In this document: positions 6,789 to 34,099 of the stretch, in pieces | Layout: each line of letters begins with the position of its first letter | Numbering within the stretch: position 1 is the stretch's first letter | Assembly (NCBI RefSeq): GCF_021731985.1 | Contig: NZ_JAKFWH010000016.1 | Coordinates: 1-64,000 of the forward strand | DNA: 64,000 nt | From: Nitrosomonas sp. | Lineage (GTDB): Bacteria > Pseudomonadota > Gammaproteobacteria > Burkholderiales > Nitrosomonadaceae | Direction: 5' to 3' | Notes under the pieces: generated by a model | Told to the model about the DNA's origin: nothing | What the model saw: the letters and a program-made list of their open reading frames with translations, nothing else | Databases searched by the model: none | Made by a program: the position numbers and the translations under genes

Positions 6789-6852
6789 CTGTATCAGTAT
6801 GAAAACCCATTGGTATCGAATTCTTTCTTTGTCAAATATTCCTCATATCTGC

Positions 6853-16491: not shown

Positions 16492-16608
16492 AGTTTTATC
16501 TATCAAAATTAGGAAAAGTTATAAAGTATACCCGATTGCGTCTTTGAAAATAGAATTCAGTCAAACTTAATATTTATTTTATAAAAACAACATCACTGCT
16601 GCGACGAT

Positions 16609-18066
16609 TTATTCTTTATTCTCCGCAAAAAATATCTCACACCCTCCATGTGGGTTATAACGGTATCGTGTATCATTCAAGCGCATACATTTTGGACCGA
16701 AAGGATTAGCAGTGCCAATATATAATCCATCCGGTGAAGATATCAGTGTTCGTAGACCAATGTTATATGGATTACCCATACCATTGGTTGTCACTGGTAT
16801 CCAATTCTCGCCATCGAAACTCCTGTATAGATCAAAACCCGATTGACGTTCCAAAACAAATTGTGGATCGACGTGATTTACTATCCCAGTAAAAGCTTCT
16901 GGCCAGTTTTCTCTATTTGCATAGCCTAATAACGCACTCCACTCGAAAGTACTTAAATAAAGCCATCCTTGGTGCTCACACATGCGCCAAAAATAACCGT
17001 TGAAGAAATTATCGAATCCCGGCATATATCCAGAAAGAGCCTCTTTCCAACCATCCGGAGTCTCGCGTGCATCACCGACTATTAAATCCCAATGCCCATC
17101 TGGGTAAATTCGTATCAATTCGGGTGGTGCAGGACCAATTTTATTTTGCCGATCAACCCCTCCACCTTGTATTCCACTGCCAACATACAGCGCGCCCTTG
17201 AATGGATACATACTGAGTACACACTGATTAAAAGCACCACGATACGCACCTCGATCAATGATTTTTTCCCAATGATAAGGGGGTTCTCCATCTACTGTGC
17301 TACGCCAAACCTGATAGCCTTCCAGATTAAAAGTACCAACATATAGATAATCTTCAAAGCCAGCCATTTCAAAGATTGTTTTATTACCAGAGTCTCCAAA
17401 ACCAAAATCGCTAACTGGTCTCCATTGACCACTCGCTGGTTTTTTACTTTCGTAGACCACTGAATGTGCAGATATATTTGGATTTCCTCCGCGAGAGCCA
17501 GCTGGAGTTGTAAAAAGACGCCCCTTAAACATCACCATTGTTCGGATTGTTGTTACGGGTAAACCAATTAAACCTGGTTCACAAGTTGGTGTAAAAGTGG
17601 CGCCGTCTTCAGACGATAATATTAGTGGCCCAGGTCCTTTTGCAGGTGACCAAGTACTAACGAGCAGAACAGGTTTATCATTATTATTTCCCTGATAGAC
17701 TATCATTCCACGATAGCCTATTTCTCGTGTAATGAGTTTACCGTGACTACCTGTTATGAGTGGTGCTTTATGAATCCTCTCCCAGCTTTCACTGTTTGGA
17801 CTATACCGCCAAATCTCTGCCCGCATATCTAGTTCAAATGGATCCTCCGGACACTCGACTGGCCATGTATTCAACCCAATTGAAAGACGCGAGCTCATAA
17901 AGGGAAAATTACCGCGCGTCGTCGCTACATAGAGTTGGTTTTTAAACCAGGCCATAGAATGTGCATAAGCATTAAGTCCATCGCCGAAACCACCGTGTGC
18001 AATTAACCTAAAGTCTTCTTTTTTAAGGCCTGGTCTGATGCTTAGTTTATTTTTTACCCGACTCAC
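16609..18066 (-). CDS. Beta-propeller-like protein of the lipid-synthase operon
   Basis: A 485-residue protein with no signal peptide and no family I can name. It has recurring blade-like strands: QLYVATTRGN, KPVLLVSTWS, GRLFTTPAGS, YLYVGTFNLEGYQVWRS, ALYVGSGIQGG, WLYLSTFEWSALLG and GLYIGTANPFGP, separated by 40-70 residues. This pattern suggests a six- or seven-bladed propeller akin to kelch/BNR-type folds. It starts with GTG directly after the stop of the alpha/beta hydrolase (no gap) and is the last gene of the operon, so it probably works with the Pfa-like synthase, perhaps as a scaffold, transporter-associated or carbohydrate/lipid-binding factor. That role is inference. Confidence 0.75.
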   Translation of the reverse strand: MSRVKNKLSIRPGLKKEDFRLIAHGGFGDGLNAYAHSMAWFKNQLYVATTRGNFPFMSSRLSIGLNTWPVECPEDPFELDMRAEIWRYSPNSESWERIHKAPLITGSHGKLITREIGYRGMIVYQGNNNDKPVLLVSTWSPAKGPGPLILSSEDGATFTPTCEPGLIGLPVTTIRTMVMFKGRLFTTPAGSRGGNPNISAHSVVYESKKPASGQWRPVSDFGFGDSGNKTIFEMAGFEDYLYVGTFNLEGYQVWRSTVDGEPPYHWEKIIDRGAYRGAFNQCVLSMYPFKGALYVGSGIQGGGVDRQNKIGPAPPELIRIYPDGHWDLIVGDARETPDGWKEALSGYMPGFDNFFNGYFWRMCEHQGWLYLSTFEWSALLGYANRENWPEAFTGIVNHVDPQFVLERQSGFDLYRSFDGENWIPVTTNGMGNPYNIGLRTLISSPDGLYIGTANPFGPKCMRLNDTRYRYNPHGGCEIFFAENKE

Positions 18067-19131
18067 TTATCGATCATTTGTGATTATTTTGGAAAGATAC
18101 GAGCCTACAAATTTTTTAGCTTCATTTAATTCAATAAATGGTCCAATTCTGGTAGATTCCCGAGTGAAAAAAAACCACTTTCCATTAGATTTAAAAAAAC
18201 GCTCGCAACGAAAATAGTTTTTAAAATCTTCACCATTTCTGTATTTAGAATTGTTAGTAAGCTCACCATTAAGAAATTGATTACATATCGTTAATACCTC
18301 ATCCGACCTTGATGTCAGAAAAAAATGTCCGGCACCACGCACATGTCTAAATTCTGCATTCGGCCAGATATCTAGTAATTGTTTTCCAGTTAATTTAGCC
18401 TGTGAATTTTCACCATATATTGACAGGATTGGGAAATTAAATTTCTGTAATTTTTCTAAAGTCAAACCATCTTCACTCATCAATTCATTCTCGGCAGATG
18501 TATTGGTCATTAAATTTAGCCATTGCATTGCCGTGCGGTTACTGAATTTTCCTGAATATGGAATAATCAATTCAGCTAGGTTTTCCGGAATATTCTTTTC
18601 TTCTATTTGCATTTGTGCCATTAAAGTTAATAGCTTACATCCAAACTTTGAGTTATGGATTTCAAGATCCAATCCATATTGGTGCAGGAGCGATTGAATT
18701 TTCTTGCCATATTCCCAACTTTTCTCACCTTGCAATTGACGAAAAGTATAAATATGCGTATCGGCTAATATCAAACCCGCCACACGCTTTGGATCAAGAC
18801 AAGCGAAATTGAGAGCAATTATTCCGCCAAAACTATGAACAATAAAATATGCACGTTTAATTCCAAGATGGACAAGCAAACTCTGAAGATCAGAAGCAAG
18901 ATTTTGCGGAGTATAACCACTCTCTGTCATTTCTGACCGACCATGCCCGCGCAAATCGTATAACGTTATTCGATATCTCTTCGAAAAAGCTGGTGCATAT
19001 TGGAAATACCAGAAAGCCATATTCGTGGCCAAGCCGTGCACCATGATCAGATCTTCCACTTGATCCCCTGACTGCTCAGAATTTATTTGAACATAATTTA
19101 ACCGGTGACCATTAATAATTTCAACTGGCAC
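18067..19131 (-). CDS. Alpha/beta hydrolase of the lipid-synthase operon
   Basis: A 354-residue alpha/beta-fold hydrolase. It shows the oxyanion region MVHGLATNMAFW, the DLRGHGRS loop, the nucleophile elbow VHSFGG (Ser in xHSxGG) and a C-terminal GAGHFFLTSRSDEV carrying the catalytic His. After the fold, residues about 300-350 form an extra basic/aromatic module (RCERFFKSNGKWFFFTRE, then GPFIELNEAKKFV) resembling a small domain found appended in other proteobacterial proteins. The start is GTG, five bases after the phosphodiesterase stop. It could act as a thioesterase or acyl hydrolase releasing or editing the synthase product; substrate unknown. Confidence 0.85.
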   Translation of the reverse strand: MPVEIINGHRLNYVQINSEQSGDQVEDLIMVHGLATNMAFWYFQYAPAFSKRYRITLYDLRGHGRSEMTESGYTPQNLASDLQSLLVHLGIKRAYFIVHSFGGIIALNFACLDPKRVAGLILADTHIYTFRQLQGEKSWEYGKKIQSLLHQYGLDLEIHNSKFGCKLLTLMAQMQIEEKNIPENLAELIIPYSGKFSNRTAMQWLNLMTNTSAENELMSEDGLTLEKLQKFNFPILSIYGENSQAKLTGKQLLDIWPNAEFRHVRGAGHFFLTSRSDEVLTICNQFLNGELTNNSKYRNGEDFKNYFRCERFFKSNGKWFFFTRESTRIGPFIELNEAKKFVGSYLSKIITNDR

Positions 19132-19136
19132 AGCAT

Positions 19137-20735
19137 CTACTCCATATATCCTAATAGACGTAGTTGTTCCATGATTTTTTCTTTCTCATCTTCATCTATC
19201 CTGGCTGATTCATTATCTTTGACATGCTTATTAGTGGGAGCACCAATCACAATCGGGTGCTCAGAGAGATAAGCTTCATTAAAGATTGAAAATGGCACTT
19301 TTCCCTCAAGGTCACTAGGCACCTCTAGTCCTAAGCTATATAATAAAGTTGCCCCAACATCAACAATATTGCATTTCTCTGCAACTACGCCTTGTTTTAT
19401 TCCTCGTCCGTATGCAAGAAAAACACCATCAGGATGATGAGTACCTGCTATTTCTGTGCGTAACTCAACTACAGGCTTCTTATTTTTAATAGAAACAAAA
19501 CCGAAATCACGTAAAACCAATAACAAATCAGCCGCATCTTCCATACTCGCACCTGGGAATACTTCTTCTCTAGTATGTATCTCGGCAATAATCCGCTCTC
19601 CTGTAACTGGATCTTTTAATTCTTCAAGATCACTTATTAATCTGGCCCTAACAGTCTCATATTCACTTGGTTTTATACCAGATTCACCGGGATTTCTGGC
19701 AACACGGATATTAATTCCATTACTGGATGGCGTGCGACAATAAGCAACTGTCTTTTCCCAATCCAGATAGGCGAACATGCTGTCTTCTCGTCGTTTTTCT
19801 GCTTCAGTATCGGGCACATCTTTCCATTCCAGATATCCTTTTTCATGCAGATAAGAATTAATTCGCACCACTTCGGTTGTTGAAGTAAAACCATGGTCTG
19901 ATGCCATAAATACTTGTACATCCGGTCCCGCTGCTGTGACCAAACGTTCTATAAAACTGTCAAGCTGGCGAAAATAATCGTGGCACAACTTGCGCATTCT
20001 TAAGTGATATTCACTGAGCTCGCCAGTCTGTAGGTTAGGATCAACAAATAACCAAGCTTGGTGTTGCAGTTTATCAACACCATCGAACATTACCGCCATT
20101 AAATCTGGTGATTCTTCACGCAGCAAATAATCAGCGATACAAAACCACTGTTTCTCACGCGGCAAATGATAACGTACCCAGTTTTCGCGATCCTCGTTAG
20201 TTAGCTCATCAAGCGCTTGCTTTTCCTGCTCAAAATCCCAAGCCAATTCTTTCGGATTAAAATCTGGAATAGTTTTTAACCGATCATATAAATCTTCTGG
20301 GGCTGAGTTACGCCGCAAATGACGCCATGGAATGAAACCTGGCAGCATAAAGCCGTTTAAGTTTTTTGGTGGAGGTGCAGTGAAAGGAAAATTTAGCGCA
20401 GCTACTCGTTTGCCCTGACGACTGGCAATCGACCATATCATTTCTGCTTTACAATCTCGAGAATCGTATAGCGTAAAAAACACATCGTTTCCACGTTCTT
20501 CTGCACGAATAAAATCAAAAATACCATGATTTCCTGGATTTCGTCCGGTCATTAGAGAGACCCAAGCAGGCGGAGTCAAAGGATTAGGCGTTGAACGTAA
20601 AACGCCCCGTACTCCTTTGTCGAATATTTTCGCCATAAATGGCATCACTGGACCTTCCCCACTTTTTGCAACAAGATCATTCAGTACTGTAAAAGTAGCA
20701 CCGTCCATGCCGATAAATAATGTACGAGTAGTCAT
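19137..20735 (-). CDS. AlkP-superfamily phosphodiesterase/phosphotransferase
   Basis: A 532-residue type I phosphodiesterase/nucleotide pyrophosphatase-like enzyme. The first metal-binding Asp is in FIGMDGATF, the probable Thr nucleophile is near residue 54 in NPLTPPAWVSLMTGRNPGNHG, and further metal ligands are in FDGVDKLQHQAW, MASDHGF and AGTHHPDGVF. No signal peptide or membrane anchor is visible, so it is likely cytoplasmic. An AGGAG site precedes the ATG, 14 bp after the ACP gene. Within this operon it may transfer or remove a phospho-headgroup on the lipid product; that is inferred from context only. Confidence 0.85.
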   Translation of the reverse strand: MTTRTLFIGMDGATFTVLNDLVAKSGEGPVMPFMAKIFDKGVRGVLRSTPNPLTPPAWVSLMTGRNPGNHGIFDFIRAEERGNDVFFTLYDSRDCKAEMIWSIASRQGKRVAALNFPFTAPPPKNLNGFMLPGFIPWRHLRRNSAPEDLYDRLKTIPDFNPKELAWDFEQEKQALDELTNEDRENWVRYHLPREKQWFCIADYLLREESPDLMAVMFDGVDKLQHQAWLFVDPNLQTGELSEYHLRMRKLCHDYFRQLDSFIERLVTAAGPDVQVFMASDHGFTSTTEVVRINSYLHEKGYLEWKDVPDTEAEKRREDSMFAYLDWEKTVAYCRTPSSNGINIRVARNPGESGIKPSEYETVRARLISDLEELKDPVTGERIIAEIHTREEVFPGASMEDAADLLLVLRDFGFVSIKNKKPVVELRTEIAGTHHPDGVFLAYGRGIKQGVVAEKCNIVDVGATLLYSLGLEVPSDLEGKVPFSIFNEAYLSEHPIVIGAPTNKHVKDNESARIDEDEKEKIMEQLRLLGYME

Positions 20736-20749
20736 CCGAGATTCATCTC

Positions 20750-21043
20750 CTATTGATTTTTTAGTTTAGATTCGAGAAAAATAGAAATCTGTTGAATTGA
20801 CAAATCCCCGACATATTTTCCATCTTCCATAAGAAGTTCATGGAATTCCAGCTTTCGCTCATAATTTTGCTCTAGTGCTACACATAACTGTATGATATCA
20901 ACTGAAGAAAAATTCAGATCATTAACTAGAAATGTTTCCTGGCTAATCGCCTCATCCAAATTTAATTCCCAATCCTGAACTAAATCTTCAACAATCATTA
21001 TCACAGTCAGAATGATTTTTTCTTGTTTTACTATATCTTCCAA
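20750..21043 (-). CDS. Free-standing acyl carrier protein
   Basis: A 97-residue acidic helical protein with an ACP-type motif DLNFSSVDIIQL, in which the second Ser would carry the phosphopantetheine arm (the usual preceding Asp is Ser). Following helices (VALEQNYERKLEFHELL, LSIQQISIFLESKL) match ACP helices II-IV. I choose TTG 21043 as start because AAAGGAAG lies just upstream; upstream in-frame ATG codons fall inside the synthase's transferase domain and give atypical sequence. It begins about 22 bp after the end of the 1585-residue synthase. It may receive the fused phosphopantetheinyl transferase's cofactor. Confidence 0.8.
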   Translation of the reverse strand: MEDIVKQEKIILTVIMIVEDLVQDWELNLDEAISQETFLVNDLNFSSVDIIQLCVALEQNYERKLEFHELLMEDGKYVGDLSIQQISIFLESKLKNQ

Positions 21044-21065
21044 TTTACTTCCTTTTATTAATTTG

Positions 21066-24000
21066 CTAGCAACTGGCCAGTGCAATGATCGAATTATCTT
21101 TGCGAGTAACAACGACATCAATTTTGAATTCTGAATAGGTAACACAAGCACTCTCGCATCTAGTATCCATAAACGAAACTTCAAAAGCGGTTGGTTTGCC
21201 TTGCAGACCCAAACCAAGAAACTTTGACGCCGCTTCCTTAGCGCACCAGAATCGCAAAAGTTTATCATTCAGTACTGAGCTATCCAGACCACGTACAAAA
21301 GCTTCTTCACTAGCAGTGAGTGTTTCAATCATTAGATCATTATTTCGAATTTTATTAATCTCTTCAATATCAATACCTACTGGAGATCGTGACTCCGAAA
21401 TTGCGGCTAAGCTCGCACAATTATTATGTGAAAGTGAAACTTCTGGCGGCTGTATAAGAGTATTGCACCATAACCCATCAACATACGGTGCTCCATATTG
21501 ATCATGCAGTACATAAATATCAGACGGATAAAGTAATTGACCGGTTTTTTGAAAAATCCAATAACGAACAGCTTCTTTTATACATGCTCGACCTAACAAC
21601 CACTGGGATTGATAACGCTTATTTGCTTGCAATTGCTTCCATGCATCGCGTTCTTCAAAGGACAAAAAGATGTGCGATAAAATACGCAAGAAAACTCCAC
21701 CGGATTGTGCACAAAATTCATCAGATAAATTTGGTAACTCCCATACTAAAACATCATCTTTTAACACCGGAAATTGATGTCCAAGCCAACCATTAAGTGG
21801 ATCACGCCTGACTTGATAGAATCTGTTTGGAACAGGAAAAAAAATATTAATTAAATTAGCTAGCCTAACAACCGGATATCCATTCTGATCGATACATTCA
21901 AACTGCCAGGCACGTGCAGATGAAATTTCTTTGTTTGTATCATCCAATAAGTATTGTCGGGCCTGTAGTTTTAGGCCAGTTATATTTGCCGGGCATTGAG
22001 TATAGAGTTCGATTCGTTGAATAGTGGATGGAAAACTATTAAAGTCAGTGCCAATCTGCTGTGCGATCCAATACGCAGAAAGTTGCCCCATCGCATCGAG
22101 TAAGACCGGATTAATTATTAATTTGGGTGTTTCTCTTGCAGTAAGAAATCCATCTAAGCTAACATCTGAAAGATTTGCATCAATACCTTCTTCATCCCAA
22201 CCTTCAATATGAGCTATACTTTGAAAGATGGGGCCATGAAACATTCCGGTCGAGTATAATTCAGACCCATTCCAGCGAGATACTCTTTTTTCCTTAAGCG
22301 CAGACAATTTCTTGCAATGCCAGTCGGGTTTAAATCGGAAATCCGCACTTACTGCAACACCTTGGGCCGTTATAATTTTTGCACAGAAAATTCTGGATTC
22401 TATATCAGTCAATTCAGCATGTACTTCAAATGTAATTTCTCCATCATCAAGCGTAATCCAATTCATAGCTTTGACATTTTCAATTACAAATACTTCAATG
22501 CTATTGGCCAGAACTGCACATGCTTCTGCCATTATCTCTAAACTAACCATGAAAGGTATACAAGAAAGACCTCGCAAATCGGGCTCACTTTTTGATACGA
22601 TACCTGACAAAACATGATCTATAATAAATCGATCATCTTTAATATTAAAATAGCATCGCGCTTTCAGATGTTGATGATCTAGCTCCTCAATTGAATCCAG
22701 TAAACTCGTATATTCTATTACTGAAGATGACGGTTGCTCTTCTTCTGGTATTAATTCCGTTTGCAATTGCCAATTTTTCACTACAGAACTTTGCTGCTCC
22801 AAGAAGTTACGCATCACATCAAAATAATCCGACATAACACTTTCTTGAACTATTGATCCTTTCGATCGACTGTCTTCACATTTTATTTCTACGTCGTTTG
22901 AGGACAAGCTTATTACATCAGTTTCTCTATCAAGATTAATTGTTAATTTTTGTAAACTAATGCGATCGGCATCACTCAGACGTATTTTTGGCATAGTATT
23001 GTCCAGCAATACACTCGAATGTTTTATTTGTATGCTATTAGAGAAATCTATTGATGTAATGAAACGTGAATTAAATAAATTTTCAATTTTTACTGGTCTA
23101 CCATCAACATATAAAAAAGCCAGTGTCGTCAGAAAATGATCAAGGTTATTACGGTGACGAAGATTCGTGGCAAGTGAAACATGTGGTTTTTTAGTTAAAG
23201 TATCTTTTACAAATGCGCTCAGGTTACCAGAAGGTCCAACTTCAATAAAATAGCGCACTCCATCATGATACATTTTTAAGAGCGTTTCTCTGAAGCGGAC
23301 TTTGGTAGACCATTGTGCGGCAGCTAATTGCTGCACTGATTGTGTAGTATCTGGGAATAAATCAGCCGATGAACAAGAATAAAGTGGTACCCTTGGACAG
23401 ACTAACTTGATTTTTTTATAAAATTTTAAAAATGCCTTGCTTGCTTCAGAGAATGCAGCTGTATGATAACCACGGTCAAAAGGTAACGGAAAGCAGATTC
23501 CTCCTTCCGCGCTAAGAGATTTATGGATTGACTCAATGGGACCGGCATCGCCATAAAGTATCAGCTGATTTGTACAGTTATCCATCGCAATAACTATATT
23601 TTCATTAAGCGCATCAATATGTTTTTCAACAACTGTCAATGGCAATGCACCGACAGTCAGCAATTTACCCACTGGTATCTTGCCATCCTTTAATATCTGT
23701 TGATAAACTTTATTAAGCTGTCGAATAAACTCAGCCAATTGTTGTGGATTATCTGCAAGAATTGCACCAGATGCTGCGAGTGCAGATGACTCCCCAGAAC
23801 TGTGGCCAACCATGACATCGGGTTCCACTCCCAGTGAACGGAGTAAAGCATACATAGCTTGCCCGCCAATAAATGCTGCCTCTGAGCCAACATCCATATC
23901 ATTGAGTCGTTTTTCTAACTCTGATCGACGTTGCTCTGTCAGTTCACTGATTGGAGGAAATATCACATCTGTTCGTGTAGAACCAGGTGGAGCATCATAT

Positions 24001-25823
24001 AAGCTACGCCAGAAATCGAACCATTGACGCACTTCATCAAAGTATATTGCGAGATCAGATAACATGCCAATATACTGTGAACCTTCTCCCGGAAACAGGA
24101 ATGCAAGCTTTCCAGAAGATCTTGTCTCACTGTACACAATACCGCTTTTTGTTGACCATCTAGCGGAATCACTTTTACGTAATCGCCGTAATGAATCTTC
24201 AATTTTTATCGGTAGATCTTCGTTATCTTTGGCTATGATAGCAAGGCGATATTGACCTTTTTTATCTTTAGCAGCTAATGCTGCTGCAATGTCTGCTATC
24301 CGTCTCTCAGGATAAAATCCTATAAAATCTGAAGTCTGCTTAAGATTGTTCGCCAATTCCTCACGATTATCCGCAGAAAAAATACAGATTTCTGCCTCCC
24401 ACGGAGTAAATCTTTCAGGTTTCAGCGCGGATTCAGGTGCTTCTTCCAGAATCGCATGAGTATTGATCCCACCGAATCCAAAAGAATTGATCCCTACCCG
24501 ACGAGGTATATTTAATTGACTAATCCAAGGAGATTTCTGCGTATTAATATAGAACGGCGTGCTTGCAATTCCCAATTCCGGATTAACATTGTCACATAGT
24601 GTTGGTGGTAAAATTTTATGATGCAGGGCAAGCGCGCTTTTAATCAATCCAGCGATTCCTGCAGCAGGAATGCAATGACTGATCATTGATTTCACTGATC
24701 CTAACGCTACGCTACCATAATTTTCTTTGCGCTTACCAAACACATTCTCTAGTGCCGCTATTTCTGTTTTATCACCGAGTGGAATACCAGTACCATGCGC
24801 TTCGATTAAACTAATAGAAGCTGGGTCAATGCCGCTCTTGCTATATGCTCTTTGTATAGCTAATGTTTCACCTTCAATACTTGGCGCTAGTAAGCCATGC
24901 CCCCGCCCATCACTAGCTTGCCCGATCCCTCTGACAACTGCATAAACACGATCCCCAGCGGAAATTGCATCAGATAATCTCTTTAGAACGACAACACCGA
25001 GACCTTCGCCAAGTAATGTTCCATCACTACCCTCTTCAAATGGACGTACTTTACGACGCTCGCTTAATGCACCAAGTTGAGTAAAAATTACTGCAACTTC
25101 AGCTGGTAGGGAAGCATTAACCCCTCCAGCTAACATCATACGACTCCGTCCAGCGCGTAGTTCATCAATCGCTGCATTCACAGCTAATAATGAGGATGAA
25201 CACGCAGCATCAATTAAATAGTTGGGACCTTTGAAATTTAAACGATTAGCGATTCTGCCAGTCATTACGTTTGGAACTAAACCGGGTGCAATATCTGAAT
25301 TGGACTGTGGTAACTTACTTTCGAGCAATACTCTTATCGCAGTCAATTTTTCTTCACTGATAAAAGGGCAAGCAACTTGGAGCAATTCAATAGTTTGATC
25401 TAAGACAATATGATTCTGTATTAGCGTGCCTTGCCCTCTGTGCAAATAAGTACTGTGTCCAAGAATAATTCCGGTATCATAATGATCATAATCGCCAGTT
25501 AAATATCCAGCATCAAGGAGTGCGTCACGGGCCACCCGAAGGGCCATGAACTGATCTGGTTCTCCGCCATCCAATGAGTTCGGCATAATGCCAAACTCTC
25601 GCGGATCGAAATGGTACAAATCCTTAAGATATCCCCCACAAGCCGTTTTAATTCGACCAGATTTTAGGTAACGATCGGCATCCCATTTCAATGTCGGCTC
25701 GGTGACTGCGTCCACACCAGTAACAATATTTTTCCAGAATTCCTGTATATTAGATGCTTGGGGAAATACGCAGGCCATCCCTATAATTGCGATTGGTTCC
25801 AAGCCGTCATTGGCGATCCCCAT
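21066..25823 (-). CDS. Pfa-like synthase subunit: KS-AT-DH with fused PPTase
   Basis: A 1585-residue multidomain lipid/polyketide synthase. Ketosynthase (about 10-450) has Cys208 in DAACSSSLL and His in EAHGTGIPLGD and SVKSMISHCIPAAG. Acyltransferase (about 560-880) has LFPGEGSQYIG and Ser675 in GHSSGES. A double hot-dog dehydratase-like region (about 1060-1340) has His1070 in DHVLSG and Asp in NPVLLDAMGQL. The C-terminus (about 1400-1585) is a 4'-phosphopantetheinyl transferase with GIDIEE and WCAKEAASK. No ACP or KR is inside. The start ATG overlaps the upstream stop (TAATG), implying coupling with the 2758-residue partner. The domain set resembles PfaC plus PfaE, but with an AT in place of a chain-length factor. 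Confidence 0.92.
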   Translation of the reverse strand: MGIANDGLEPIAIIGMACVFPQASNIQEFWKNIVTGVDAVTEPTLKWDADRYLKSGRIKTACGGYLKDLYHFDPREFGIMPNSLDGGEPDQFMALRVARDALLDAGYLTGDYDHYDTGIILGHSTYLHRGQGTLIQNHIVLDQTIELLQVACPFISEEKLTAIRVLLESKLPQSNSDIAPGLVPNVMTGRIANRLNFKGPNYLIDAACSSSLLAVNAAIDELRAGRSRMMLAGGVNASLPAEVAVIFTQLGALSERRKVRPFEEGSDGTLLGEGLGVVVLKRLSDAISAGDRVYAVVRGIGQASDGRGHGLLAPSIEGETLAIQRAYSKSGIDPASISLIEAHGTGIPLGDKTEIAALENVFGKRKENYGSVALGSVKSMISHCIPAAGIAGLIKSALALHHKILPPTLCDNVNPELGIASTPFYINTQKSPWISQLNIPRRVGINSFGFGGINTHAILEEAPESALKPERFTPWEAEICIFSADNREELANNLKQTSDFIGFYPERRIADIAAALAAKDKKGQYRLAIIAKDNEDLPIKIEDSLRRLRKSDSARWSTKSGIVYSETRSSGKLAFLFPGEGSQYIGMLSDLAIYFDEVRQWFDFWRSLYDAPPGSTRTDVIFPPISELTEQRRSELEKRLNDMDVGSEAAFIGGQAMYALLRSLGVEPDVMVGHSSGESSALAASGAILADNPQQLAEFIRQLNKVYQQILKDGKIPVGKLLTVGALPLTVVEKHIDALNENIVIAMDNCTNQLILYGDAGPIESIHKSLSAEGGICFPLPFDRGYHTAAFSEASKAFLKFYKKIKLVCPRVPLYSCSSADLFPDTTQSVQQLAAAQWSTKVRFRETLLKMYHDGVRYFIEVGPSGNLSAFVKDTLTKKPHVSLATNLRHRNNLDHFLTTLAFLYVDGRPVKIENLFNSRFITSIDFSNSIQIKHSSVLLDNTMPKIRLSDADRISLQKLTINLDRETDVISLSSNDVEIKCEDSRSKGSIVQESVMSDYFDVMRNFLEQQSSVVKNWQLQTELIPEEEQPSSSVIEYTSLLDSIEELDHQHLKARCYFNIKDDRFIIDHVLSGIVSKSEPDLRGLSCIPFMVSLEIMAEACAVLANSIEVFVIENVKAMNWITLDDGEITFEVHAELTDIESRIFCAKIITAQGVAVSADFRFKPDWHCKKLSALKEKRVSRWNGSELYSTGMFHGPIFQSIAHIEGWDEEGIDANLSDVSLDGFLTARETPKLIINPVLLDAMGQLSAYWIAQQIGTDFNSFPSTIQRIELYTQCPANITGLKLQARQYLLDDTNKEISSARAWQFECIDQNGYPVVRLANLINIFFPVPNRFYQVRRDPLNGWLGHQFPVLKDDVLVWELPNLSDEFCAQSGGVFLRILSHIFLSFEERDAWKQLQANKRYQSQWLLGRACIKEAVRYWIFQKTGQLLYPSDIYVLHDQYGAPYVDGLWCNTLIQPPEVSLSHNNCASLAAISESRSPVGIDIEEINKIRNNDLMIETLTASEEAFVRGLDSSVLNDKLLRFWCAKEAASKFLGLGLQGKPTAFEVSFMDTRCESACVTYSEFKIDVVVTRKDNSIIALASC

Positions 25824-28800
25824 TACAATTCTCCAGAAAACAATTCAATAGCTTTCGGCGTAACTTTTGCACTTCCCCCAAGCCGATTTAAAGCTTTACT
25901 CGATATGCATTCCATATTCTCAATCAACAAAACCATCTGACCAGCAATATCTGAGAAATAAATATTAGCGCACAGCAAATTCGAGTCTTGCGATGGAATA
26001 AGCTCAAACTCCATATATAACTGGTCAGGAAATGTTTCTTGATAGCGTACAACACGACCAAATTTTGTCGGCAACGCCGTTTCATCACGAAAACTCCGTG
26101 TCCATAAAATACCCATTTGGGCAGCAGAATCAATGACTGCAGGATCAAAGATCCATTTATCATGATTTTCAGCATTTAAAACCCAATTAACCGGGTGAGT
26201 AGTTTTTACAGTTGCGTTTGCGCCATCCTTTGATAATCCCTCAATATCTTCGATAACCTGAAAGCAAGGACCATGAAACAATAACTCATTGTACGCTTTG
26301 GTTACTGTCAGTTTTTTCTCGGAATGTAATTTATTAACTTGCTCAATACCATGCGGTAGTTTTTGTTCTAAACGCAGGGTAGATTTGTAATGAACTAATG
26401 GCTTACTACCCTTCTTTTCAGATTGCAGTATCGCATTGATTTCAAAACCAGCACTACTGCCATAAGGAGGCGGATTGATAACAATACTAAAATTACGTTC
26501 ATCCTCCTTTAGTTCAATTCCTTTTAGGAGGCAGAAGTTCTGTATCTCAACTACCTTCCAGCCATTCCAAAGATGCTGGGCAGCCTCGGCAAACATTTCC
26601 AGCGCGGCTGCCGCAGGCAGCACCGGAACTCCATCAATACGATGATGCTGCAGATAACTTTGTTTAGCATCAATATGAAAATTAATTGCCTGATTATTCT
26701 TTGCTAATACAGCTCTTTCCGAACGGCCTATCAGCGACCCTATACTATGGGTATCCAATGTTTGAGAACTTTTCTTGATCTCTCCAATAGTTGATTCGCG
26801 CTTTTCCCATGGCCCTTCACCACAAATAATTTCAACATTAGAATTATTAGTCCGCATTAACTCATCTTTAAATAACTGATGTCCTATTTCGGCTGTTACC
26901 AGTTTTACACCATTTTTTGCAAATTTTGCTTCGGTTTCTGCAGTCACCATTCCTGAACCAAATTTTGTTTGACCCCAAGGACCCCAGCAGAAAGCGATAA
27001 TATTTACCTGATTGTTCCAATTCATGTTCAATTGGCAACATAATCGATTCATAATCTCGTTTGCAGTAGCATAATCCGTTTGACCACTATTTCCATATCG
27101 TCCAGCAACAGAACTAAAAACTGTAAAAAATTTGAGTGACCCAACGCGCAGATATTTTTGCAATACTAATAGACCCATAACTTTGGTTTCAACTACGCGC
27201 GTCCAGCTATCAATTTTTTTATCTGCAAGTAATTTATCTTCAATGATGCCGGCTCCGTGTACGACGCCATCAATTCTGCCATAGCACTTGTAAACATCAT
27301 TCAGTAAGTGATGCATATCATCTTCATTTGTCACATCAACTGCACGATATTCGACAATTGCACCACGCTGTCTAAAATCTGCAATATTACTGTGCATTTC
27401 TCTTGCAGCAAGTACTGCGCTAATTTTCTGGCCAATCATAGCTGGCGTGCTAGGGGTATTATTGCTTCGTGCTTCAGAAATAAAGTATTGGCGCAAAGCG
27501 TCAGCAGTAGTTAGCGTTTTTAGTATTTCCGGTTCTTTATCTGCTAATGTACTGCGCCCGGTAAGAATAAGTGTGTTACCTGGAAGCGCCAGTTCCCGTA
27601 GAACCTCTGCAGTCACACCTCTTGCGCCACCCGTTGCGAAAACGATAATGTTTTGCAATTTTTTACTATTAGCTTGATCGACGCTAACGGGTGCGGATAC
27701 CGTGTGAAAAACCGTACGTTTACCTTCTGGATAACCGATCTCCTGGCGCCCGCCAACTAATTCCATTTCTCCAAGTAAAATTGACGCAATCTCAGAAGAA
27801 TTCTGCGATGGGTCAATATCAACTGCTTTGATACGCAGTGACGGGCGTTCGTCAAACAATGATTTAAGCATCCCGACGGCTCCACTTTGTATACATAACC
27901 CGCCGCGTGAACTACTGCCATTTCGGTTAAAAAAACCGCCAAGCGAACTTGATGACACTATATGCGCATCTTTTGCAAGTTTGTCACTAAAATCATGCAA
28001 CAAAACAAAAAAAGATTTCTCATTGATTTGCAACTGCTTCCGCCACTCATCCAACGCAGCATCGGCTTTAAACCAATCTCGACTAAGCTGGGCAAGATGG
28101 ATTACACCAGCAAGTTCATTGAATTCATTTTTATGCTCATTACACCAGCTATTTAACAAATCATCATGTAGCAGTGTATTTCGTTTGATTAAGTTAACAG
28201 TACACCCACGGGAAATAAGTTTTTCCGTTAACTCATCCGCGATACCTAGCTCATCTTCGGTGACAAGATAATGTCCTTGCTTTAGCTGCTTAAGTGCAGC
28301 TCTATCAACATCTTCTTGTTTATATTCAATAATATGCCGAGGTGGATGACTGTGAATAGAAGTCATTTCTCCCACCTCGGCAAAATTAAAAGGGGCAGCT
28401 ACGGTCCCTCCAGCTTTCAAATTAACTAGTATGTTGAGTATCCCATTTAGAGTCGATTGCGTATTGAGCTTGCTACGATTCTCACCTATTTCCTGGCGAT
28501 AGTTTTCAGGAAGCTTTTGCAATAAGGTGCCTACAATCTCTATCCTTTTTATAGAATCAATACCAAGATCGGATTCGAGATTCTGATCTAGTCCAATCAT
28601 ATCGGGCGGATAGCCAGTTTTGTCTTCAATCACACCCAGTAGTATTTTAGTTATGCTGTCACGATCAACAGACGAAACTATTTTACTTTTCTCCTTACTT
28701 TTATCAGATATATCAATTACCTGAGCAGAAGTAACGGTAGAAGTATTTTGAGTAGTTGTCGCATTTGTAGATACTGGCATGGCCGTTTTTTTATCAGGTA

Positions 28801-31800
28801 TTTGCATAACTTGATTCTGCTTTGCCGGCTCCAGCTCTTGCGTAGCTTCGTATGCTTGAACTTTGGGTGGCACATATGAACTAACAATCCTCTGTTCCCG
28901 CATGCTCGCTTGATCAACAATCGGCTCACCGATATATGCTGTCATGACTCGCTCTTGAGTTTCAAGAAACTGCCGCATAGTCTCAAAATACTCTGACATA
29001 ACCGCAGAATTTCCAGAGTTCGTCAATGGTCGTCGCTCTCTCATTTGATTCTCCTTTTTCCATGTTTTTTGTTGCTGTATTTGCTTTGTATCAGCCAAAT
29101 CGGCGGTATTTACCTGACTTACTTGATTTACCTGATACTCAGAAATTTGTGGTTTATCGGTGCTAGCCTGAACAGTTGCAACGTTCAGAGATTGATTGAT
29201 TATTTGATTGGCTGTCACTCCAATCTGTTTAACCGGCTGATTTGCTTGCCTGACACCACTGCCATTCAGCATCCAAGAATGTTTTGGCACCGCATTATGC
29301 CGTTGCAGTGATTCCAACTTGGCGGGATCGCCACTCATACAATCTCGATGCGTAAAAAGTTTCATTACATTGAGATTAATACCAGTGCATATTAATTGCC
29401 CAAGCGCATTCAGCATACCTGACAATCCACTACCGTTATCGATAGAAATTGCCTTATGCGGCAGATTAATTAATATCTTATCGGTTAATTTTGATAAAAC
29501 GGATTTTGGACCAAGTTCTAGAAAAATTCTCGCACCATCTTGATACATCGATTCAATTTCAGCCACGAACTCGACTGGATTCACGAGATGTTCCGCCATT
29601 AACTTCTTGGTAATAGCTACTTCAGCAGCATGTGGTTTCGCTGTTGTATTTGAATAAACAGGAATACGGCATGGTTGCCACTCCATATTATCGATTAGAT
29701 TTGCTAAAGCACGTTGCGCTGGTTTAACCAAGTTTGAATGAAATGCAGCTGCCACAGGTATTTGATTGGTGATTATTCCTGCTGCCAATAATTTTCTCTC
29801 TGCAGATTCAATGGCGGAGCGTGAACCAGAAAGAACACTTTGTAATGGTGCATTATGATTTGCGATAACGACGTCATTCTGGCCTGTCAACACTGCTTCT
29901 ATATCTTCCCGGCGTGCCTGAACTGCAAGCATTGTACCTAGTTCTGTTTTTCCTGTATCTGCTGCATCAATGATGAATCTTCCACGTGCAGAGGATAAGG
30001 TCATCAATGTATTTAAATCGATTGCACCGCTTGCGTGCAACGCGACAAACTCACCGTAGCTATGCCCGGCGAGCATATCCGGTTCAATTTCGAATGCTTG
30101 CAATAACTTCCAAAGTCCTGCTTCAACAGCACCCAATGCAGGCTGAGCAATATCTGTATTTGTTAAACTCCGTTGCGCCTCGGCTTTGGCGTCTTCACTG
30201 TAGCAGCCACGTGGAAAAATGAAGTGACTCAGATGCTTATTTTCACCATAACGTTGTGAAAAGTTTTCACCCAAGATTCTATCAGCTTCGGCTAACATCT
30301 CAGTATAAATAGGAAAATGTAACGAAACTTCACGTAACATACCTGTGTACTGAGAACCTTGCCCAGGGAATAGTATTGCAAGTTTTCCAACCGGAGCATT
30401 ACCCGATCCATGATAAACACCTACCGGCAGCTCTACACTTTTGTCCTGCAGATAATCTAATAAAACCGCAATCTTTTCTTTTAAATCGGTTAAATCTTTT
30501 GCAACAATTGCGACATTTTCATTACCCATTTGCCATTTTTTGGCCAAACTGTTCGCAATGTCGCGCAATTCTATACTTTGTATGTTTGATAATTTTCCTT
30601 GCATATCCATGAATCGAGCAACTAATCCTTCACGGCTAACATCACTCCACAATAGCAGTTCAACCGGCCACCGCTGAGAAGTCACTGGAGAAAGCCATTC
30701 ACGGTATTCTTGTGTATACTCTTCTAGCGCGATATGAAAATTTGTGCCGCCAAAGCCGAATGAACTTACCGACGCTCTCCGTGGAACAACCTCAGACACT
30801 ATCCAAGGCTGCGCTTGATCTATGAGTTGAAAGGGACAATCAGCTTGTTGTAAAACCTGATTGGGCTGACTTGCCCAACGATGGGGAGGGAGAACACGAC
30901 GATGTAGTGCAAGAGCAGCCTTGATTAACCCAGCTATACCAGCAGTAGCTTTGGTGTGACCTATCATTGTTTTTACTGAACCAATTACTGCTTGCTTGGG
31001 ATTGTACTCACTCTCCTTAATTAATTTCATTGTACTTTCAAGTTCAGCTGTGTCACCAGCAACAGTACCAGTACCATGAGCCTCAAAAAGACCGACTGTA
31101 TTGGGATCGAAACCAGCTTGAGCATAAGCACGGCGCATTGCACGTAATTGTCCTTCGGGTAATGGAGCAGTCATTCCTTTCGCATTGCCATCACTGCTGC
31201 CCCCGGTACCTTTAATCACCGCATAGATGCGATCACCGTCACGTTCTGCGTCATTGAGACGCTTAAGTGCAACCATTGCAATGCCTTCAGAAATGACTAT
31301 GCCATCGGCGGAAGCATCAAATGAGGAACAACGACCTCGCGGTGAAAGTGCTTGGGTTTTGCTGAAGCATAAATACCCAAATGGGCCTTGTACAGTATCG
31401 ATACCACCCGTAATGACAAAATCACTACGCCCTGAAGTTAGCTCCGACACACTTTGATATAGTGCAGCCAGCGCAGATGCGCAGGCTGCATCAGTAGTGA
31501 AATTTACTCCGCCCAGATTAAGCCTGTTTGCGATGCGTCCAGCACTGACATTATTTAATAGTCCAGCAAACGAATCTTCTGTCCATTCAGGTAAGCGATC
31601 AGCAATATTTTCAGGTAAAGAACCGTAGAATCTAGGAAGCTCTGCGCGCAATCCATACTGAGTACCGACATCCCCAGTTCCACCGCTGACACCCAGGATG
31701 ACTGATGCGCGCTCTCGATTAAAGTCTCTGTCTTGATATCCTGCATCAATCAATGTGCGCTGAGCCACTTCCAATGCCATCAACTGCATCGGATCAATAG

Positions 31801-34099
31801 ACTCTAGCGATTTTGGCGGCATTCCATAGCGAATTGGATCAAAAAGCATATCATCGAGAAATCCACCCCATTTTGAATAAATCTTATCCTTCGCTGAGCG
31901 ATCCTCATCAAAATATAAGCGCCAATCCCACCGATGTAACGGGATTTCAGTTATAGCATCAACTTTATTAAGAATATTATTCCAATAATCTTCGATTGAA
32001 TTTGCTTTCGGGAGCAGACATGCCATGCCAACAATGGCAATATCAACAGGCTTCTCGGCGAGAAGCTGGGATTCCCCACTAGTCTTTGAAAATCGGGTAG
32101 CAAGCAGTCCAGCAGCATCTTCAGTCACCTGCTGGTGAAGCAACCCTATATCAGTAACTTCCGAGCGTAGCGTTGCAACCTGACCGAGCATATACATGCC
32201 TTCTTCGTGTTGTTTTTCCTCATCAAGATATTGTAATTTGCCTTTAGCACCTTTCCGAACGGAACCTTTTGATGCAATACGTAATCGGCCCATAATTAAA
32301 TCATCTAATATTTTGCGGCCTTCGTCAGCTGGCACATCTTTTTTACGTAACAGCGAACGCTTACGAAAAAATTCCTTGGCGAAAGGAGTATACGCACAAC
32401 AACTTGCGTGACCATGTCCTGATTCTAAATTTACCGTTCGCGTACATTTGATTACCTCTTCTTGGTATAAGGGAAGTATCGCAGCGCTACTGACAATTTC
32501 TCTCGTAAACAAATAAGCGCTACCCATCAGAATTCCTATTTTTACTTTCTTTGCTGCCAATGGAGCCACCAGAACTTGGACCATTGCAGAAGAAACTGCG
32601 TCATGGATGCCGCCAGCGAAGAGAACTTCAAATTCACTACCTTGTACTTTACCACTCTGCAATTCTACTAATAGGCGATCGACCATTGCGCTCCAGAGCA
32701 CAAAACTACTCAGTGGTCCTATATGGCCTCCACATTCACGGCCCTCAAAAATAAAACGGCGCGCACCTTCCTGAATAAAAAGTGAAATTAAATCTGCGGT
32801 AGGTACATGAAGAAAAGTAGGAATCTTAGCAGCTTCCAAACGAACGGCTTGATCTGGCCGTCCACCAGCAATGATTGCGTATTTAGGTTGAAATTCGATT
32901 GCTAATGTTAGCTGTTCATCGAATAATTCCTGAGGAACAAAACCTAGCAAACCAATACCCCAGGGACTATCGCCAAGCAAATGTGTAGTTTCCGACAATA
33001 ACTTTCTTAATGCAGAGCCTTTCAGCAACGCAAACGCCAACATTGGCAAAGCTCCACCGTTTGCTATGGCTGCAGCAAATTCAGCAGAATCAGATACTCT
33101 GGTCATTGGTCCTTGCACCAAAGGATAAGGAATACCTAGAGCTTCTGCCAATGGAGCATTCCGGGATATCGATTTAGCCTCAATTGCTTGATGCAAATTT
33201 TTTTCAATTGCTGCATCAACTGCTTTAAATAGATCAGCTAAATGCCTATATTTTTTATGCCATGGGCCAGCAAAACAAATATCTTGACCTATTGGCAATA
33301 ATCCTTTTCGTAATTCTTTCCAGTTAATTTTAGTGTTTACCAAGCGCTTGAGCGTGTCATGGTCTTGTCCTTCACCAGCACGAATAAAAGCCTGCGCATC
33401 AGTAAAACCAGGACGAACGAGTAAGCGGAAGTATTCACCTATTTCTCCATTACCAACTAGAACGGTCTCATTTCCGGCGAGGTTGCTAAACATAGAACGC
33501 AAGGAATCAGGTAATCGAAATTCATCCATCAACAATACTTGGGAATCAAAAACACCACCTGCTGCACCAACTGCATTACAGGCCGCCGCAACATGAGGGG
33601 TCAAACCTCCATGGATATATAGTGGCAAATTAGTTTGCTTATGCCATTTTTGAAATAGGATAAAGCTGCTATTTTCACCAACAAAACCGCCGGCTTCGTT
33701 ACCTTTAAGTATTAATCCATCGACTAATTGATCGAAAGGTTGAGTTGGCCAATAAGATTGTTTCAACTCGGCAAGTACCTTAATACCTGCATGTCTCAGT
33801 TCTTGAATAAAAACTTCATGAGTACTGACAATCTTGGAATCGACTATTAACCAATTCAAACCCTTCTTGCTACAATTATGAATTTCGGTTATTAAATTTT
33901 CGTTTAGCGAATTAACTTTAAGACCATACCCTTGGCAAGATTTTTTAACCAGCAGGTCAAGCTGATCCACAATTAGTGCAGAACTTGTTTCGTATTCAGC
34001 ATTAAGAACTCCAACTCCCCCTGATCGGCATGCAGAAATAATCAAAGTTACATCGCCATGTTCTATCGGTGTATAAACAAATTTTTTAAATTCTGACAT
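25823..34099 (-). CDS. Pfa-like synthase subunit: NPD-NPD-KS-AT-ACP-KR-DH
   Basis: A 2758-residue iterative type I synthase. Residues 1-300 resemble a degenerate nitronate-monooxygenase/PfaD-type TIM barrel (LILKGNEAGGFVG, HGGLTPHVAAA). Residues about 315-610 are a second, complete PfaD-like enoyl reductase (PYPLVQGPMTRVSD, GRECGGHIGP). Then KS (about 680-1130, Cys873 in DAACASALA, EAHGTGTVAGD, SVKTMIGHTKATAG), AT (about 1240-1540, LFPGQGSQYTG, Ser1347 in GHSYGEF), a single ACP with Ser1849 in DLGIDSIKRIEI, KR (TGGARGVT; Ser/Tyr in SVAGRYGNSGQTDYATAN) and a C-terminal DH (about 2470-2740; HHRIDGVPVLP, PAVIDSAAQM). Order from KS to DH copies PfaA, with PfaD fused in front. First gene of the operon; the upstream ribosome site is weak. 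Confidence 0.93.
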   Translation of the reverse strand: MSEFKKFVYTPIEHGDVTLIISACRSGGVGVLNAEYETSSALIVDQLDLLVKKSCQGYGLKVNSLNENLITEIHNCSKKGLNWLIVDSKIVSTHEVFIQELRHAGIKVLAELKQSYWPTQPFDQLVDGLILKGNEAGGFVGENSSFILFQKWHKQTNLPLYIHGGLTPHVAAACNAVGAAGGVFDSQVLLMDEFRLPDSLRSMFSNLAGNETVLVGNGEIGEYFRLLVRPGFTDAQAFIRAGEGQDHDTLKRLVNTKINWKELRKGLLPIGQDICFAGPWHKKYRHLADLFKAVDAAIEKNLHQAIEAKSISRNAPLAEALGIPYPLVQGPMTRVSDSAEFAAAIANGGALPMLAFALLKGSALRKLLSETTHLLGDSPWGIGLLGFVPQELFDEQLTLAIEFQPKYAIIAGGRPDQAVRLEAAKIPTFLHVPTADLISLFIQEGARRFIFEGRECGGHIGPLSSFVLWSAMVDRLLVELQSGKVQGSEFEVLFAGGIHDAVSSAMVQVLVAPLAAKKVKIGILMGSAYLFTREIVSSAAILPLYQEEVIKCTRTVNLESGHGHASCCAYTPFAKEFFRKRSLLRKKDVPADEGRKILDDLIMGRLRIASKGSVRKGAKGKLQYLDEEKQHEEGMYMLGQVATLRSEVTDIGLLHQQVTEDAAGLLATRFSKTSGESQLLAEKPVDIAIVGMACLLPKANSIEDYWNNILNKVDAITEIPLHRWDWRLYFDEDRSAKDKIYSKWGGFLDDMLFDPIRYGMPPKSLESIDPMQLMALEVAQRTLIDAGYQDRDFNRERASVILGVSGGTGDVGTQYGLRAELPRFYGSLPENIADRLPEWTEDSFAGLLNNVSAGRIANRLNLGGVNFTTDAACASALAALYQSVSELTSGRSDFVITGGIDTVQGPFGYLCFSKTQALSPRGRCSSFDASADGIVISEGIAMVALKRLNDAERDGDRIYAVIKGTGGSSDGNAKGMTAPLPEGQLRAMRRAYAQAGFDPNTVGLFEAHGTGTVAGDTAELESTMKLIKESEYNPKQAVIGSVKTMIGHTKATAGIAGLIKAALALHRRVLPPHRWASQPNQVLQQADCPFQLIDQAQPWIVSEVVPRRASVSSFGFGGTNFHIALEEYTQEYREWLSPVTSQRWPVELLLWSDVSREGLVARFMDMQGKLSNIQSIELRDIANSLAKKWQMGNENVAIVAKDLTDLKEKIAVLLDYLQDKSVELPVGVYHGSGNAPVGKLAILFPGQGSQYTGMLREVSLHFPIYTEMLAEADRILGENFSQRYGENKHLSHFIFPRGCYSEDAKAEAQRSLTNTDIAQPALGAVEAGLWKLLQAFEIEPDMLAGHSYGEFVALHASGAIDLNTLMTLSSARGRFIIDAADTGKTELGTMLAVQARREDIEAVLTGQNDVVIANHNAPLQSVLSGSRSAIESAERKLLAAGIITNQIPVAAAFHSNLVKPAQRALANLIDNMEWQPCRIPVYSNTTAKPHAAEVAITKKLMAEHLVNPVEFVAEIESMYQDGARIFLELGPKSVLSKLTDKILINLPHKAISIDNGSGLSGMLNALGQLICTGINLNVMKLFTHRDCMSGDPAKLESLQRHNAVPKHSWMLNGSGVRQANQPVKQIGVTANQIINQSLNVATVQASTDKPQISEYQVNQVSQVNTADLADTKQIQQQKTWKKENQMRERRPLTNSGNSAVMSEYFETMRQFLETQERVMTAYIGEPIVDQASMREQRIVSSYVPPKVQAYEATQELEPAKQNQVMQIPDKKTAMPVSTNATTTQNTSTVTSAQVIDISDKSKEKSKIVSSVDRDSITKILLGVIEDKTGYPPDMIGLDQNLESDLGIDSIKRIEIVGTLLQKLPENYRQEIGENRSKLNTQSTLNGILNILVNLKAGGTVAAPFNFAEVGEMTSIHSHPPRHIIEYKQEDVDRAALKQLKQGHYLVTEDELGIADELTEKLISRGCTVNLIKRNTLLHDDLLNSWCNEHKNEFNELAGVIHLAQLSRDWFKADAALDEWRKQLQINEKSFFVLLHDFSDKLAKDAHIVSSSSLGGFFNRNGSSSRGGLCIQSGAVGMLKSLFDERPSLRIKAVDIDPSQNSSEIASILLGEMELVGGRQEIGYPEGKRTVFHTVSAPVSVDQANSKKLQNIIVFATGGARGVTAEVLRELALPGNTLILTGRSTLADKEPEILKTLTTADALRQYFISEARSNNTPSTPAMIGQKISAVLAAREMHSNIADFRQRGAIVEYRAVDVTNEDDMHHLLNDVYKCYGRIDGVVHGAGIIEDKLLADKKIDSWTRVVETKVMGLLVLQKYLRVGSLKFFTVFSSVAGRYGNSGQTDYATANEIMNRLCCQLNMNWNNQVNIIAFCWGPWGQTKFGSGMVTAETEAKFAKNGVKLVTAEIGHQLFKDELMRTNNSNVEIICGEGPWEKRESTIGEIKKSSQTLDTHSIGSLIGRSERAVLAKNNQAINFHIDAKQSYLQHHRIDGVPVLPAAAALEMFAEAAQHLWNGWKVVEIQNFCLLKGIELKEDERNFSIVINPPPYGSSAGFEINAILQSEKKGSKPLVHYKSTLRLEQKLPHGIEQVNKLHSEKKLTVTKAYNELLFHGPCFQVIEDIEGLSKDGANATVKTTHPVNWVLNAENHDKWIFDPAVIDSAAQMGILWTRSFRDETALPTKFGRVVRYQETFPDQLYMEFELIPSQDSNLLCANIYFSDIAGQMVLLIENMECISSKALNRLGGSAKVTPKAIELFSGEL

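Follow-up and report, generated by a model that had tools for sequence, protein, structure and literature searches.

Several groups of multidomain enzymes are relevant to the locus described here. In the canonical Pfa systems (Types A/B), as they appear in the portion of PMC3098273 consulted, PfaA carries 4-6 tandem acyl carrier proteins (ACPs) and PfaC has the order KS-CLF-DH2. The same portion describes a secondary lipid synthase, in the broad sense, as having at least one KS, ACP and KR together with MAT/AT, DH, ER and PPTase in some combination, and gives x(G/D)xP and hShxH as the PPTase motifs of Types M-T. In the curacin and Ols pathways, according to the sections used of PMC3903477 and PMC3908369, PAPS-dependent sulfotransferases (ST) act on carrier-held hydroxyacyl chains, the sulfate is then lost with CO2, and ACP, ST and TE are fused. 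PUFA-synthase-like PKS/NRPS hybrids form a further group (PMC13291983), and a term search of that paper gave no mention of either a sulfotransferase or sulfate.

Operon layout and synthase domains

The window, which is the whole 64,000-nucleotide stretch of Nitrosomonas sp. DNA that was analysed, contains six minus-strand genes at 16609-34099 (Table 1). This set had been claimed from an earlier inspection of the letters alone (the sequence-only reading), and its coordinates, starts and stops were all verified. The gaps between the genes were -1 (a TAATG overlap), 22, 14, 5 and 0 bp, in keeping with the 0-25 bp spacing given before. The observation of a six-gene operon is confirmed, and the interpretation attached to it is partly supported. 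Chance does not account for the arrangement, as the full set of six is found again in three genomes from different genera.

Table 1. Coordinates of the operon genes and the upstream esterase gene in the window
Feature	Coordinates	Strand	Basis
Large synthase subunit, 2758 aa, ER (NMO)-KS-AT-ACP-KR-DH	25823..34099	-	Pfam, NCBIfam
Second synthase subunit, 1585 aa, KS-AT-DH-PPTase	21066..25823	-	Pfam, motifs
Discrete acyl carrier protein, 97 aa, TTG start	20750..21043	-	Sequence, ribosome-binding-like site, homologues
AlkP-superfamily phosphodiesterase, 532 aa, Thr-nucleophile type	19137..20735	-	PF01663
Alpha/beta hydrolase with C-terminal DUF6316, 354 aa, GTG start	18067..19131	-	PF00561, PF19837
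Beta-propeller protein, 485 aa, GTG start	16609..18066	-	AlphaFold2 model, Foldseek
Esterase with lipoprotein-like signal, 288 aa, upstream of operon	34592..35458	-	PF02230/PF10503

Pfam placed the ER domain of the large subunit (NMO, PF03060) at residues 316-562, followed by KS (686-1073), AT (1243-1538), PP-binding (1820-1863), KR (2155-2376) and PKS DH (2468-2735) domains. The second subunit gave KS (9-409), AT (575-895), PS-DH (1190-1321) and ACPS (1481-1554) matches, of which the DH is weak (PF14765, 25.0 bits against a cut-off of 23.7) and the last is a C-terminal phosphopantetheinyl transferase (PPTase, PF01648). Both subunits have the KS cysteine (DAACASAL in the large, DAACSSSL in the second) and the AT serine (GHSYGE and GHSSGE); the first AT shows an AFHS motif and the second GYHT, which recurs as YHT in listed family variants. 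The KR motif SSVAG...YATAN is found in the large subunit, DH histidine and aspartate motifs are also present, and the second subunit has the PPTase motifs YGAP and VSLSH. The KS, AT, ACP, KR and DH motifs with active residues reported earlier were seen in the window proteins, with Pfam in agreement; that domain list had overlooked the ER, the second DH and the PPTase. In a check for a possible tandem pair of ER domains at the front of the large subunit, residues 1-304 and the following 303 had just 20 aligned residues in common (E 0.002), while the NCBIfam FabK model reported two stretches in this subunit. By Pfam, neither synthase contains a loading ligase/FAAL, ST or TE domain, and no NRPS or modular PKS occurs in the operon.

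Against the NCBIfam model omega_3_PfaA, the large subunit scored 1070.2 bits, over the cut-off of 1010.1, which bears out the assignment to the PfaA type, and the second subunit scored 558.3 bits, below it. The large subunit shares the PfaA-class KS-AT region with the Types A/B synthases. As far as those types are covered in the consulted portion of PMC3098273, the locus departs from them in having one PP-binding domain rather than tandem ACPs, and nothing corresponds to KS-CLF-DH2: there is one KS per protein, each with its cysteine, one weak DH and no second KS-like domain. Pfam likewise finds just one integrated ACP, in the large subunit, an AT in both subunits, and a domain content different from the canonical EPA/DHA architecture, as had been read from the sequence. 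By the same portion of that paper, the operon has the domains of a secondary lipid synthase in the broad sense, and YGAP and VSLSH fit the PPTase motifs of Types M-T. The likeness to the Pfa types of Shulse and Allen 2011 (PMC3098273, in the part used) lies in the PfaA-type KS-AT-ACP-KR, the PfaD-kind ER, the DH and the PPTase, whereas here the large subunit carries the ER as an N-terminal fusion and the second subunit the PPTase as a C-terminal one, and an integrated ACP occurs together with a discrete one. The domain order matches none of the types by their text description there, and may equal a listed type such as M, N or O. The PKS/NRPS hybrids, in the part of PMC13291983 used, are similar in that PUFA-synthase-like enzymes have been recruited to specialised lipids, and differ in the NRPS and modular PKS components, which are absent from the operon.

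In a tree of 53 KS rows (53 of 66 segments, leaving out near-copies, duplicates and one second segment), the KS domains of the two subunits fell on different sides, each in its own clade; several long branches were flagged, and the rows include no named reference with a known product, so neither subunit is assigned a Shulse-Allen type. The sequence-only reading had named a KS phylogeny that puts both proteins into a characterised cluster of known product as a result that would speak against it, and among these rows no such placement was seen. The nearest outsiders to each subunit were the pairs from Streptomyces NBC_00984 and genome G186 (supports 98/92 and 80/84), and a separate clade (100/100) was formed by KS segments whose retrieved frame contains two ACP-like motifs. 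Rows in the KS motif survey mix both subunits, the best match per locus having been taken. The plasmid of Streptomyces sp. NBC_00984 (NZ_CP108735.1) resembles the window in carrying two synthases, an ACP and an alpha/beta hydrolase in the same order, and its two KS domains neighbour those of the window in the tree. Unlike the window, it has no phosphodiesterase or propeller match, and a glycosyltransferase and a methyltransferase come next. Plasmids searched with the propeller as query gave no match. Those matching the second synthase did so at less than 60% identity throughout, and by the count of the search tool none spanned 80% of it in one place.

Accessory proteins and distribution of the operon

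The TTG start given earlier for the ACP that follows the synthases was verified at 21043, where it is preceded by AAAAGGAAG, a ribosome-binding-like site; a longer ATG frame, from 21268, overlaps the synthase gene. No Pfam match was obtained for the long frame, NCBIfam ACP models matched the protein weakly (E 4e-4 to 8e-4, below cut-off), and the motif LxFxSxDxx is conserved in relatives. The phosphodiesterase matched PF01663 with 155.8 bits. Its residues D11, T54, D221, H225, D280, H281 and H433, which from reading of the family we take to be metal ligands and nucleophile, were each kept in 43-44 of 44 rows, so the enzyme is probably active. Matches to it as a query were confined to distant members of the alkaline-phosphatase family, from haloarchaea and elsewhere (approximately 28% identity at best), and no PDB relative was found by sequence. 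The earlier suggestion that this protein carries out headgroup transfer was not supported beyond its family assignment.

Residues S100, D124 and H269 of the hydrolase were invariant in 28 of 28 rows (27 locus segments and the window, from the 52 rows of the motif survey), and the position after strand 7 where the acid usually lies has none. Its structural model (pLDDT 87) has an alpha/beta hydrolase fold, generic esterases and dehalogenases were among the 50 listed of 1964 fold matches, and the protein is a probable acyl-release enzyme. The propeller protein matched no Pfam or NCBIfam family. An AlphaFold2 model built from an alignment of 31 of 62 loci and the window had a mean pLDDT of 92, and Foldseek gave kelch and other beta-propellers, a generic result with TM of at most 0.47 among the 50 listed. 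The model, together with the listed matches, which were all propellers, bears out the earlier description as propeller-like.

In the genus of the window, the propeller was present in 2 of 85 genomes: that of the window (G000) and a second genome with the operon, assembled as a single contig (G020). The phosphodiesterase was found in these two alone among 61 relatives searched. The large subunit is 89% identical in G020. Of 398 genomes drawn from the phylum, 25 matched the second synthase at E 1e-100, and close matches among them were limited to G473, G162 (61% over KS-AT) and G382 (43%). All six genes are present in these three genomes; the large subunit is 46-55% identical there over its first 1700 residues, and a single 860-residue protein combines hydrolase and propeller in G162 and G473. 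Homologues of the discrete ACP are 94% identical in G020, 54-56% in G162 and G473, and 46% in G382.

A propeller profile scan of 84,980 species gave 62 loci, which were divided into a close group (42 loci with the propeller at least 60% identical) and a distant group (20 loci). Carriers of the operon belong to Pseudomonadota and Desulfobulbaceae, and include metagenome-assembled genomes (MAGs) labelled Nitrospira, Brocadia, Verrucomicrobia and Myxococcota, for which binning errors are possible. Operon genes were counted, with identity and length thresholds chosen for this analysis, in the 37 of 42 close-group loci that had 8.5 kb upstream. The second synthase was present in 36 of these, the hydrolase in 35, the large synthase in 34, the ACP in 29 and the phosphodiesterase in 27; second synthase, ACP, phosphodiesterase and hydrolase occurred together in 23. 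The ten loci without the phosphodiesterase include those of Neptuniibacter, Ideonella, Lysobacter and Mangrovimicrobium. The sequence-only reading had named absence of the accessory genes from all relatives with the synthase as a result that would speak against it; the comparison was run, most relatives carry them, and the reading is not refuted by it. Locus L034 has two propeller paralogues (6013-7536 and 15443-16996), 45% and 34% identical to the propeller of the window, and a second propeller match also occurs in further loci.

Sulfotransferase and exporter genes outside the operon

Operon neighbours in relatives include a sulfotransferase (PF13469), an HlyD-type membrane protein, a lipoprotein that from reading we take to be TolC-like, a PF00884-family protein, a small protein and an esterase. 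Within the flank (E 1e-10), the sulfotransferase was present at 13/42 close-group and 17/20 distant-group loci, and the HlyD-type protein at 24/42 and 15/20, respectively. At the Desulfobulbaceae locus L039, thirteen same-strand genes lie in one run, encoding both synthases, the ACP, the phosphodiesterase, the hydrolase, the propeller, the HlyD-type, PF00884-family, sulfotransferase, small, esterase and TolC-like proteins, and a 400-residue protein.

No sulfotransferase was found within the 64-kb window. In G000 its gene lies on another contig (C22), adjoining PF00884-like and small-protein genes, and the HlyD-type and TolC-like genes adjoin each other on contig C18. G020 has three such sites, near 2.05, 2.26 and 2.41 Mb, and because this genome is a single contig, the three-site split is not an effect of assembly. 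Beside the TolC-like gene of G020 (locus L111, 14394-15671) is a gene for a 425-residue protein with a 45% homologue in L039; the G000 contig ends there. The six genes of the earlier set stand as members, and the esterase and the unlinked sulfotransferase and exporter genes had been overlooked; the unlinked genes change the likely product.

The sulfotransferase occurred in 2/85 genus genomes, precisely those with the propeller, and is 65% identical in G000 to that of Neptuniibacter. Among 12 genomes, the HlyD-type protein was full length in G000 and G020 only, with short weak matches in eight of the other ten (best E 1e-5 to 1e-9) and none in two. The esterase gene is a probable further pathway member in spite of a 492 bp gap to the operon, since it is confined to the same 2 of 85 genus genomes; esterase matches were present at 19/62 propeller loci. 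Pseudomonas in the wide sense, the genus to which G473 belongs, gave 6/328 genomes with the sulfotransferase and 6/328 with the propeller (E 1e-40), and these were the same six. If the labels were independent, the odds of this would be 6e-13, and 2.8e-4 in the genus of the window; relatedness among the genomes means that neither value is a true probability, and common descent accounts for part of the co-occurrence inside a genus. Genomes were also searched for 27 propeller loci, 26 of them without a sulfotransferase in the retrieved flank and the other, L083, with a 35% match in it; 25 of these genomes encode the enzyme. Synthase genes are present in 24 of the 27, of which 22 carry the sulfotransferase (55-70% identity) and the remaining two are MAGs.

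An ACP-sulfotransferase fusion was found at 5/62 loci, four in Neptuniibacter and one in Lysobacter. Its best PDB matches were 4gbm (CurM, 3.9e-59) and 4gox (Ols, 1.6e-57), with the next at 9.5e-6, and those of the stand-alone type present in G000 were 4gox (6.2e-17) and 4gbm (6.6e-17), with the next at 0.02. APS kinase, the source of PAPS, is encoded in G000; it was rejected as a specific marker, being present in 11/12 genus genomes, and shows only that PAPS can be made. Genes that from reading we presume to be CysD- and CysNC-like lie near the cluster in L041, L044 and G473.

The propeller was the most constant companion of the sulfotransferase. Propeller, sulfotransferase and HlyD-type protein also occurred with no synthase match in the flank at L094 and L098 (the cyanobacteria Chlorogloea and Chroococcus) and at L086 and L093 (Nevskia), the L094 sulfotransferase match being a short stretch. 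Given that the trio occurs in this form, the propeller may work alongside the sulfotransferase rather than on the synthase, and the three may constitute a separate module for other substrates.

Further genes of the window were recorded. Upstream of the esterase is a PEP-CTERM protein gene (PF07589, 35680-36312, minus strand), with a similar ORF at the same place in G020. A sulfatase-modifying-factor-like protein (PF03781, 204.6 bits) is encoded at 38445-39461 on the minus strand, approximately 4.3 kb from the operon, and a 1274-residue ORF at 57058-60882 on the plus strand had no Pfam match. The chromate transporter gene (PF02417, 36989-38353, plus strand) has 72-78% homologues near the cluster in 6/62 loci, all Pseudomonas; a role as a partner in sulfate uptake was considered, but with this narrow occurrence the gene is recorded here only as a neighbour.

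Proposed pathway and alternative readings

The genes, their conservation and their co-occurrence are observed. We infer each chemical step of the following pathway, in which the product of a PfaA-type synthase would be sulfonated on a carrier, released and exported; the leading version, an exported sulfated lipid that keeps its sulfate, is given a probability of roughly 0.45. Judging from the domains, the two-subunit iterative synthase would build a long-chain acyl chain that the integrated KR, DH and ER reduce, and the fused PPTase would arm the carriers. The discrete ACP would then carry the chain while the PAPS-dependent sulfotransferase, encoded elsewhere, sulfonates a hydroxyl group. Sulfonation of the carrier-bound chain is the step that we trust most, and it is suggested by the co-occurrence, by the ACP-sulfotransferase fusions in relatives and by the relationship of the enzyme to its CurM and Ols counterparts. 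Release of the chain would fall to the alpha/beta hydrolase, and outward transport of the product to the HlyD-type and TolC-like proteins, whose genes likewise lie outside the operon. The phosphodiesterase, PF00884-family protein, propeller and esterase may handle the headgroup or the product. The sulfate may last or be lost; retention is favoured by the exporter proteins and by the fact that nothing among the listed matches visibly connects the hydrolase with the CurM thioesterase. Several observations weigh against the proposal: the window holds no sulfotransferase, close-group loci have one in the flank in only 13 of 42 cases, two of the 27 genomes gave no match, and the trio without a synthase may serve other substrates.

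The same genes could instead form a split olefin synthase, a reading that we consider rather unlikely. Here the sulfate on a beta-hydroxyacyl-ACP would be a leaving group and the hydrolase would hydrolyse and decarboxylate, as in the curacin and Ols pathways, to give a long terminal alkene or polyene. The locus and its relatives resemble the CurM/Ols systems in sulfotransferase kinship (the Ols and CurM enzymes being the nearest solved relatives of both sulfotransferase types, and the G000 homologue, on another contig, being 65% identical to the protein whose top matches were 4gox and 4gbm), in the carrier fusions at five loci, comparable to ACP-ST-TE, and in having an alpha/beta hydrolase in the operon. 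The invariant triad Ser100-Asp124-His269, with no acid in its customary position past strand 7, is suggestive only. The acid of the CurM thioesterase is also located after strand 6. That thioesterase was, however, absent from the best 60 of 255 sequence matches of the hydrolase and from the 50 listed of 1964 fold matches. The sulfotransferase in G000 is separate and unlinked, the synthases lack a loading ligase domain, whereas Ols has its FAAL loading domain on one PKS polypeptide with ST and TE, and an HlyD/TolC-type exporter is hard to square with a hydrocarbon product.

Less probable still, and in our estimate quite improbable, is that the operon alone makes an unsulfated secondary lipid, a free or membrane-bound fatty acid, with the sulfotransferase and exporter belonging to another pathway that shares the same hosts. 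The unlinked position of these genes in G000 is consistent with this, as is the related Streptomyces plasmid cluster, where no gene listed is named as a sulfotransferase. Shared hosts, however, would hardly explain the occurrence in the same 2/85 and same 6/328 genomes, the presence in 25/27, the single-locus Desulfobulbaceae arrangement or the ACP fusions. A canonical omega-3 PUFA (EPA/DHA-like) synthase with rearranged domains is highly improbable and was rejected on domain count: the large subunit passes the omega_3_PfaA cut-off and KR, DH and ER are all present, but the integrated ACP is single and not tandem, neither protein has a CLF-like second KS, the KS of the second subunit keeps its cysteine, and KS domains with two ACP-like motifs sit in another clade.

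Under the preferred reading of a sulfonated and exported product, we tentatively suggest an undescribed two-subunit PfaA-type class, whose chain would be sulfonated on a discrete carrier, released and exported by an HlyD/TolC-type route, with a gene set in six labelled phyla (MAGs and isolates) that in the genus of the window is split over at least three chromosomal sites. The sequence-only reading had also taken the product and the role of the accessory genes to be apparently undescribed, and this agrees with the open-access literature searched, in which no description of the gene set was found; subscription journals lie mostly outside that scope.

Pfa-type synthases with unidentified products have been listed since 2011, usually with no chemistry attached. 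Here the unlinked co-occurring genes give a testable prediction, namely sulfate, PAPS, a carrier-bound hydroxyacyl chain and export. A single-operon reading misses parts of a pathway whose genes are dispersed in one host but adjacent in another. On the condition that the proposal is true, a sulfated or terminally unsaturated surface lipid is to be expected in scattered members of Pseudomonas, Rubrivivax, Neptuniibacter, Ideonella and other genera.
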